Origin: Bacteroidia bacterium
GTDB lineage: Bacteria > Bacteroidota > Bacteroidia > UKL13-3
Length of the DNA stretch: 64,000 bases
Direction: 5' to 3'
NCBI GenBank assembly: GCA_021740845.1
Contig: JAIOYZ010000002.1
Span: forward strand, 62,001 to 126,000
Positions 22,097 to 24,359 of the stretch are shown piece by piece. The notes beneath the pieces are model-generated. The model ran no database searches. It saw nothing but the letters and a program-made list of their open reading frames with translations, and was not told the origin of the DNA. The position numbers and the translations under genes were made by a program. Position 1 is the stretch's first letter, and each line of letters begins with the position of its first letter.

Positions 22097-22399
22097 CTAA
22101 CCAGGCAATAAAGCCAAAATAATGGCAACAAATGCAATTAAGAAAATCAGTACCATTTGTCCACTCTGAATTGACCTTTCAAGCCAGAATAACAATTTAT
22201 TGTTTTCCGAGTTCTTAATTTTAACCATTTTCATCATGGGAGAGCCTTCCCTTTGTTCTCTTTCTAATTCAGCCCTTTCTTCCCTGTACTTTTTGTCTAA
22301 AATCTCACCGCAATGCTCGCAAAAGGCCTTTTCCCCGTTCGTCCATTTGCTGCAATGCTCGCATTTTTTGGTTGAGCTAATTATTTCTGAAGATTTCAT
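22097..22399 (-). CDS. Zinc-ribbon small membrane protein
   Basis: The protein is 100 aa. An N-terminal double CxxC zinc ribbon (CEHCSKW ... FCEHCGEIL) is followed by a charged helix (EERAELEREQREG) and a C-terminal transmembrane helix (GQMVLIFLIAFVAIILALLPG). Function unknown; it is probably anchored in the inner membrane with the ribbon in the cytoplasm. Its start overlaps the end of the SRPBCC gene by 23 bp, indicating translational coupling. Confidence 0.75.
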   Translation of the reverse strand: MKSSEIISSTKKCEHCSKWTNGEKAFCEHCGEILDKKYREERAELEREQREGSPMMKMVKIKNSENNKLLFWLERSIQSGQMVLIFLIAFVAIILALLPG

Positions 22400-22835
22400 T
22401 TAGTTGTTGTTCTCGGTAGGCAAATATCTCATTCACTTTCTTATCTACAAACAACCAGTGTAAAAAAGGAGCAAATATCCATCCCTTTGATCTATACTCA
22501 ACAATATCAGTCATTTCGGTTTCATTGCCTACTGATTTAAAGATATGTTGATGGTGCCATTTGGAATAAGGACCACTTATTTGTTCGTCTACAAATGAAT
22601 GTGGAGGATTCCAAACACTAATTTTTGTTTTCCATTTAAAAGGAATACCCATTAATGCAATCTGGTAATTAATAATCTGGCCAGGAAACATTTTAATTGG
22701 CAAAGGAGATAATATTTTAAAATTTATTATAGGAGGGGTAAGAAGATTTAAATTTTCTGCCTTGCTAAAAAATTCAAATACTTCTGCGATAGGTTTGTTA
22801 ATTCTGGTGTTGTGGGAGAGAGTTACGCTTTTCAT
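22377..22835 (-). CDS. SRPBCC (START/polyketide cyclase-like) domain protein
   Basis: The protein is 152 aa. It has the helix-grip fold pattern: an N-terminal strand with NTRINKPIAEVFEFFSKAENL, a WKTKISVWNPPHSFVDEQ strand pair, SKWHHQHIFKSVGNETEMTDIVEY and a long C-terminal helix (FVDKKVNEIFAYREQQL). Such proteins bind a hydrophobic ligand in a deep pocket. Here it is a single-domain cytoplasmic form related to cell-division-inhibitor-like or YfcH-associated SRPBCC proteins; the ligand is unknown. It is the first gene of a three-gene operon and divergent from the HTH regulator, sharing its operator-rich upstream region. Confidence 0.8.
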   Translation of the reverse strand: MKSVTLSHNTRINKPIAEVFEFFSKAENLNLLTPPIINFKILSPLPIKMFPGQIINYQIALMGIPFKWKTKISVWNPPHSFVDEQISGPYSKWHHQHIFKSVGNETEMTDIVEYRSKGWIFAPFLHWLFVDKKVNEIFAYREQQLNEIFRNN

Positions 22836-22892
22836 ACTATACTAAATAACTTTAGGTCAGAATTGTTTTAATCTGCCAAATTTTCCAGTAAT

Positions 22893-23082
22893 ACATTTGT
22901 TTAGGAAAGAAAAACAAATGTTAATACTACGCAAAAAGTATTTATTAAGGTACAGAAAACCAATTAAATACCTACACATATGTTAAGTTTTACTATAAAA
23001 TACAAGTTTACAAATGTTATATAGGGTAGTAAACAATTGTTTTTAATGATTTACATTTGTGAAGGCTCTCTAAACATTTGTT
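22893..23082. promoter_or_regulatory. Array of seven palindromic operator-like sites
   Basis: Seven 8-mers of the form ACAWWTGT lie at 22893-22900, 22914-22921, 22976-22983, 23010-23017, 23033-23040, 23053-23060 and 23074-23081; several extend to AACAAATGTT or AACATTTGTT. Centre-to-centre distances are 21, 62, 34, 23, 20 and 21 bp, so most sites lie on one face of the helix. The array fills the region between the SRPBCC operon and the HTH regulator and is best explained as binding sites for that regulator or another dimeric repressor. Confidence 0.65.
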
Positions 23083-23109
23083 TATACGGCTTATTAATCA
23101 ATACTTTAT

Positions 23110-23753: not shown

Positions 23754-24359
23754 ATGAAAAAGTTGAAAATAGGCCAAAGTGAAAAAGGATTGCTATTTAG
23801 AAATCAATTTTTAGAATTTTTTACTAAAACAAATGTTTTACAAGCAATTCTAATTTATGGCATTAATTGGCTTGGTTTACTTTATTTTCATTTTAAGAGT
23901 TCCAATCTGTCAATTATAGAAAATGTATTAATTTATTTATTTGCGATTCTATCTTGGACCTTATTTGAGTATTTGGCACACAGATATCTATTTCATTTAG
24001 TAAATGAGAGCCTTTGGGTTAAGAAAATTCATTACTTCATCCATGGGATTCACCACCAATTTCCAAGAGATGCAGAAAGGCTAATTATGCCAAGTTTGCC
24101 TGGTTTGATAGTAATTTGGGTGCTTTTCAATCTATTTAATCTGATTTTAGGCGAATATTCCTATTTATTCCTTGCAGGTTTTATAAACGGTTGGGCAATT
24201 TATGTTACAATCCATTATTTAATACATGCTTTTCAACCAATTCCAGGATTCAAAACTTTATGGACGCACCACGCAAAACACCATTATGATAGGGGAGACA
24301 GGGCATTTGGTGTTTCCTCTCCTTTTTGGGATTATATTTTCGGAACCTTACCCGATTAG
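23754..24359 (+). CDS. Fatty acid hydroxylase/sterol desaturase superfamily protein
   Basis: The protein is 201 aa with four hydrophobic segments. The di-iron histidine motifs are in order: EYLAHRYLFHL, YFIHGIHHQFP, and TLWTHHAKHHYD, with a further HYLIHAFQ. This matches the Scs7-like 2-hydroxylase branch, which hydroxylates fatty acyl chains of membrane lipids; in Bacteroidota, sphingolipid or ornithine-lipid acyl chains are plausible substrates (inference). The 3' end overlaps the convergent M48 gene by 4 bp. Confidence 0.88.
   Translation: MKKLKIGQSEKGLLFRNQFLEFFTKTNVLQAILIYGINWLGLLYFHFKSSNLSIIENVLIYLFAILSWTLFEYLAHRYLFHLVNESLWVKKIHYFIHGIHHQFPRDAERLIMPSLPGLIVIWVLFNLFNLILGEYSYLFLAGFINGWAIYVTIHYLIHAFQPIPGFKTLWTHHAKHHYDRGDRAFGVSSPFWDYIFGTLPD

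Follow-up and report, generated by a model that had tools for sequence, protein, structure and literature searches.

A multi-site ACAWWTGT array, probably a set of autoregulatory operators, upstream of a stand-alone XRE regulator gene in Bacteroidia

Between two divergent genes on a Bacteroidia chromosome, one for an SRPBCC protein and one for an XRE regulator with a Cro/C1-type helix-turn-helix (HTH), hereafter the 23110 regulator, lies a dense group of short sites. Which protein would bind them, and which of the two genes do they serve? Within the window, the whole stretch of 64,000 nucleotides that was analysed, a motif scan places seven ACAWWTGT sites at 22893-23081 (Table 1), with centre spacings of 21, 62, 34, 23, 20 and 21 bp, exactly as an initial annotation of this DNA had listed them. 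That annotation also described the sites as palindromic and helically phased, and both descriptions need qualification. The ACA and TGT arms are palindromic in all seven sites, but the palindrome extends over all 8 bp in only two of them (ACATATGT and ACAATTGT), and the other five have an asymmetric AA/TT centre. Taken alone, this array shows marginal helical phasing (R = 0.62 at 10.5 bp, p ~ 0.04), with a 34-bp step that amounts to 3.2 turns, and the case for phasing becomes convincing only across orthologues.

Table 1 Positions of the sites, the predicted promoter element and the two divergent genes in the window
Feature	Sequence	Positions	Strand	Remarks
Divergent SRPBCC (Polyketide_cyc) gene		22377..22835	-	Pfam E=1.5e-6; synteny; possible second target where adjacent
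Outermost site	ACATTTGT	22893..22900	.	-217 from ATG; 117 bp (11.1 turns) above core site 1; 58 bp from SRPBCC start
Distal site	ACAAATGT	22914..22921	.	-196; 96 bp (9.1 turns) above core site 1; -196 position conserved in genus
Intermediate site	ACATATGT	22976..22983	.	-134; retained in subset of genus
Core site 1	ACAAATGT	23010..23017	.	-100 from ATG; at -92 to -115 in orthologues
Core site 2	ACAATTGT	23033..23040	.	-77; conserved in orthologues
Predicted sigma-A -7 box	TACATTTG	23052..23059	+	Inside core site 3; TAnnTTTG match
Core site 3	ACATTTGT	23053..23060	.	-57; centre orientation nearly fixed in genus
Core site 4	ACATTTGT	23074..23081	.	-36; conserved in orthologues
XRE (Cro/C1-type) regulator gene, 152 aa		23110..23568	+	HTH ~residues 3-65; one long C-terminal helix 81-150

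The 23110 regulator has the attributes of an XRE protein of the Cro/C1 type, namely an HTH_3-type N-terminal domain and palindromic candidate operators upstream of its own gene, the Pfam HTH_3 match (E = 1.4e-4, 22.3 bits) being just below the 23-bit cut-off. Its AlphaFold2 model, with a mean pLDDT of 91.9, consists of the HTH and a single 70-residue helix. In a Foldseek search this model matches the DNA-binding domains of P22 c2, 434 Cro and ImmR (7t8i) with target TM of 0.75-0.80; full-chain matches are weak, with all PDB E-values above 0.001. The C-terminal helix has a strong heptad periodicity across the alignment, which, together with the modelled helix, supports the earlier suggestion of a coiled-coil tail suited to oligomerising. 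Pfam finds no peptidase or ligand domain in the protein, of which residues 81-150 form one helix. Two further assignments were rejected: a lambda CI or LexA-type repressor, as the S24 peptidase-type C-terminal domain is absent (no Pfam match), and the RstR family (NF041951), for which the protein scores 20.4 bits against a curated cut-off of 80.

Orthologues or homologues of the regulator are present in 34 of the 60 relatives searched, and named records, mostly of uncultured Bacteroidota, supplied 34 more contig matches, many of which repeat the same loci. Removal of duplicates left 35 non-redundant family-level loci, with protein identities to the window regulator of 34-81%. The 10.2 kb upstream of these 35 orthologues contain 154 exact sites, as opposed to 12 in 160 kb of other DNA from the same loci. 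Just upstream of the start, 32 of the 35 family loci share a four-site core with a spacing of 22-(19/20)-22 bp, counted with one mismatch allowed per site and one missing site tolerated in a few loci, and aligned on an anchor site picked by eye, with a tolerance of 1 bp for its partners. In the other three loci (L015, L050 and L054), which belong to one lineage, the array is rearranged. Within the genus, the core lies at about -100, -78, -58 and -36 from the start codon. Phylogenetic footprinting, proposed in the initial annotation with loss of the sites in close relatives as the outcome that would count against its interpretation, instead finds the array before nearly every orthologue.

Contigs of several relatives (G002, G012, G013, G014 and G017; loci L113, L114, L006, L003 and L025) stop right at, or close to, the array or the regulator gene, and the locus occurs in G013 in two near-identical versions; contig ends near the array perhaps reflect strain variation or low coverage of AT-rich DNA. 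As their contigs end in this way, G002 and G012 were rejected as genomes without the regulator, and they provide no test of whether regulator and array are lost together.

The distal sites above the core keep mainly to five distances from core site 1, namely 96, 107, 117, 127 and 138 bp, which correspond to 9 to 13 helical turns. Over 19 representative loci, these distances give R = 0.85 at 10.5 bp per turn, with p = 0.0002 when each distinct distance is counted once. Exceptions are the steps of 34-35 bp, which are out of phase, and the single sites of L043 and L011 at 73 and 86 bp. Operator distances tend to differ between lineages by whole helical turns. Looping, or cooperative binding on one face, would predict this pattern, and it speaks for selection on the helix face. 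Distant operators kept in phase are also a feature of looping by RcoLS20 of plasmid pLS20, a tetrameric XRE protein with several motifs in two operators that need to be in phase (PMC4207663); a 5-bp insertion destroys regulation (PMC4207663).

The core also overlaps a predicted promoter. The flavobacterial sigma-A -7 box is TAnnTTTG at -12 to -5 (PMC9723704), and the position of the match in the window predicts a transcription start at about 23064 and a 5' UTR of about 46 nt. In 15 of 17 genus loci, a TAnnTTTG box lies inside core site 3, beginning at -58 to -60 relative to the start codon; the exceptions, L014 and L046, have another box at about -36. L043 retains the box, as TAATTTTG, although the operator is broken at that position. 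Core sites 1 and 2 were considered as the -33 box and rejected for their too short spacing to site 3. Outside the genus, TAnnTTTG at site 3 is often absent (in several other genera of the family), so the promoter overlap is a genus-level statement, and in genera without this box the promoter may lie elsewhere.

We consider it likely that the array represents operators of the 23110 protein, which would bind them cooperatively and control its own promoter, probably with looping. In the mechanism that we infer, one dimer would probably sit on each site (roughly TTWACAWWTGTWAA) via the Cro/C1-type HTH, and adjacent dimers on the same helix face would be joined by their 70-residue coiled-coil tails. 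With the core sites on both sides of the predicted promoter and site 3 over its -7 box, occupancy should repress transcription; most likely the regulator would repress its own promoter through cooperative filling of the core. Distal sites 9 to 13 turns upstream would join the complex, probably by DNA looping, and strengthen repression. Alternatively, the regulator could activate, or activate and then repress, its own promoter, resulting in a bistable memory switch like those of RcoLS20 or lambda CI. A graded array of strong and one-mismatch sites and the helical phase of the distal sites would suit such a switch, and positive and looping autoregulation is known for RcoLS20 (PMC4207663). We think it rather unlikely here, however, as the placement of site 3 on the predicted -7 box favours repression when the array is full, and the family as a whole conserves neither a competing promoter nor a partner gene.

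The neighbours of the regulator gene are SRPBCC, zinc-ribbon-like, fatty-acid hydroxylase, M48 and M13 peptidase genes. These housekeeping-type flanks, which are conserved along with their order, bear out the original remark that no prophage surrounds the locus, and none of the neighbours is an ImmA-like protease or mobile-element gene of the kind that would mark an ImmR/ImmA-type system. The SRPBCC gene is divergent from and adjacent to the regulator gene in most of the genus and in one other genus, and 270-285 bp separate the two genes in 13 loci of the two genera. This near-constant gap (22836-23109 in the window; loci L001-L018) suggests that the whole divergent region is constrained in length.

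Such an arrangement would be expected if the array were the shared control region of the divergent pair, with the SRPBCC operon and not the regulator as the main target, and the outermost sites do lie 58-79 bp from the SRPBCC start, with a site close to it in L012-L014. This reading is nevertheless unlikely. Where the SRPBCC gene is located elsewhere (L115, L116 and L117), its upstream region has no sites, and where the regulator stands apart from it (L021 and L022), the HTH upstream regions retain arrays. The core also persists in L009/L045, which have no adjacent SRPBCC gene, and its positions are fixed relative to the regulator start. Since the sites stay with the HTH gene when the SRPBCC gene is elsewhere, the array belongs to the regulator gene, and SRPBCC may be a lineage-specific second target. 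Upstream of the SRPBCC gene, many genus members have a separate conserved element, TTGGCAG-N4/5-AAAACAATT (22861-22879 in the window, minus strand), perhaps the SRPBCC promoter or the site of another regulator. The sigma-54 consensus includes a -12 TTGC half, which this element lacks, and a sigma-54 promoter was rejected.

The link between sites and regulator extends beyond the family. We drew 40 class-level (Bacteroidia) homologues from the middle and bottom of their ranking and compared them by a recognition-helix signature, (S/T)H(I/L/V/F)xx(G/E/D)R(N/S), in short (S/T)H(I/L/V)xxGRN, counting as site-positive those with one or more exact sites in the 300 bp upstream. Sites precede 20 of the 22 homologues with the signature and 1 of the 18 without it (Fisher p = 4e-8), an association that is strong but not independent proof, because the signature was picked once the data had been inspected and the proteins that carry it are also the closer relatives. 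Class members higher in the ranking, many of which differ in the C-terminus, also have arrays in most cases, at other spacings. Spacings of 15-25 and 34 bp in other Bacteroidia families indicate that the exact geometry is lineage-specific. Two exact sites, 13 bp apart, precede a signature homologue in Porphyromonas gulae (L067), at about 130-145 bp from its matched HTH region. The phage collection contains three relatives of the regulator; the viral contigs searched contain no relative. Of the three, the relative in human faecal phage MT836585.1 (L084) shares the recognition helix with its signature and has the same sites upstream, and the other two have neither signature nor sites.

Across the 4.09-Mb genome, site pairs spaced 18-24 bp occur only at the array, with four pairs as opposed to one for a reversed control pattern. 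The strict 14-bp form TTWACAWWTGTWAA has no match in this genome, the array locus included, and a looser form has 31 matches against 30 for the control, with likewise no clear excess in related genomes. A search for ACAWWTGT clusters, recommended at the outset as a way to find the regulon, yielded no second close-pair cluster in this genome, and with single sites elsewhere at control level no regulon is visible; there may be weak or single-site targets elsewhere. Tandem site pairs away from the regulator gene were seen in two relatives (G005:C9:71033-71166 and G008:C32:658379-658422), and these resemble local repeats.

Binding by the 23110 protein is a prediction, and in one genome any protein that recognises ACA/TGT arms would fit, so that a different protein, for example a global or architectural factor, might bind the sites and control the regulator gene. 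We regard this as very improbable, as the presence of sites follows the recognition-helix signature of the neighbouring gene class-wide and in a phage, and the sites lack the enrichment elsewhere that a global factor would require. Chance or AT-rich composition, suggested by the 24% GC of the intergenic region with the array, has a negligible probability, since this 274-bp region holds seven sites as opposed to a mean of 0.09 and a maximum of three in 20,000 dinucleotide shuffles of it, and the array is conserved across orthologues. The remainder of the 64-kb window holds three ACAWWTGT sites. An exact site at 23829-23836, inside the downstream fatty-acid hydroxylase gene, is probably due to chance, and over the whole window one-mismatch matches are rarer than in shuffles (169 as opposed to 201, s.d. 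13).

Autoregulation by the 23110 protein, the reading we prefer, has parallels in mobile elements and phages. ImmR, from ICEBs1 of Bacillus subtilis, has a Cro/C1-type HTH like that of the regulator and is one of its Foldseek matches. It reportedly controls its own promoter by way of several sites that surround divergent promoters. As opposed to the 23110 regulator, ImmR is encoded on a mobile element and has a dedicated inactivator, neither of which is seen at the 23110 locus, and the operator sequence and geometry differ. Looping has been suggested for ImmR, in work cited in PMC4207663. The best-studied parallel that we found is RcoLS20, which controls plasmid conjugation genes, whereas the 23110 gene is chromosomal and has no other clustered target. 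Lambda CI, P22 c2 and 434 Cro have the same HTH fold and closely spaced operators over their own promoter, but the 23110 regulator has no phage genes around it and, in place of a peptidase-type C-terminal domain, a plain coiled-coil tail.

Self-regulating multi-operator XRE proteins (ImmR, RcoLS20) and palindromes before their own genes (PMC12565409) are thus already known. Wang et al. 2025 describe XRE proteins that bind palindromes upstream of their own gene, with 9 of 10 tested pairs bound (PMC12565409); the main text of that paper names no Bacteroidota case or multi-site geometry. A literature search for the site as DNA letters returned nothing relevant. As far as searchable papers show, the operator, its stand-alone setting, the conserved turn-quantised geometry and the class-wide use are new.

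More tentatively, it is possible that a group of Bacteroidia XRE proteins shares one recognition helix and one operator, with each member mainly controlling itself via a looped nucleoprotein complex and with operator distances evolving by whole turns; such a group may descend from phage-type repressors that were kept as stand-alone switches or level-setters. The locus raises the question of why a chromosomal regulator with no other visible clustered target has so elaborate an array. A widespread group of Bacteroidota regulators, undescribed in the papers searched, also gains a predicted operator and a signature of its recognition helix, and the orthologous promoters, with distances of 96, 107, 117, 127 and 138 bp, form a natural series that amounts to an evolutionary test of phased cooperativity or looping.
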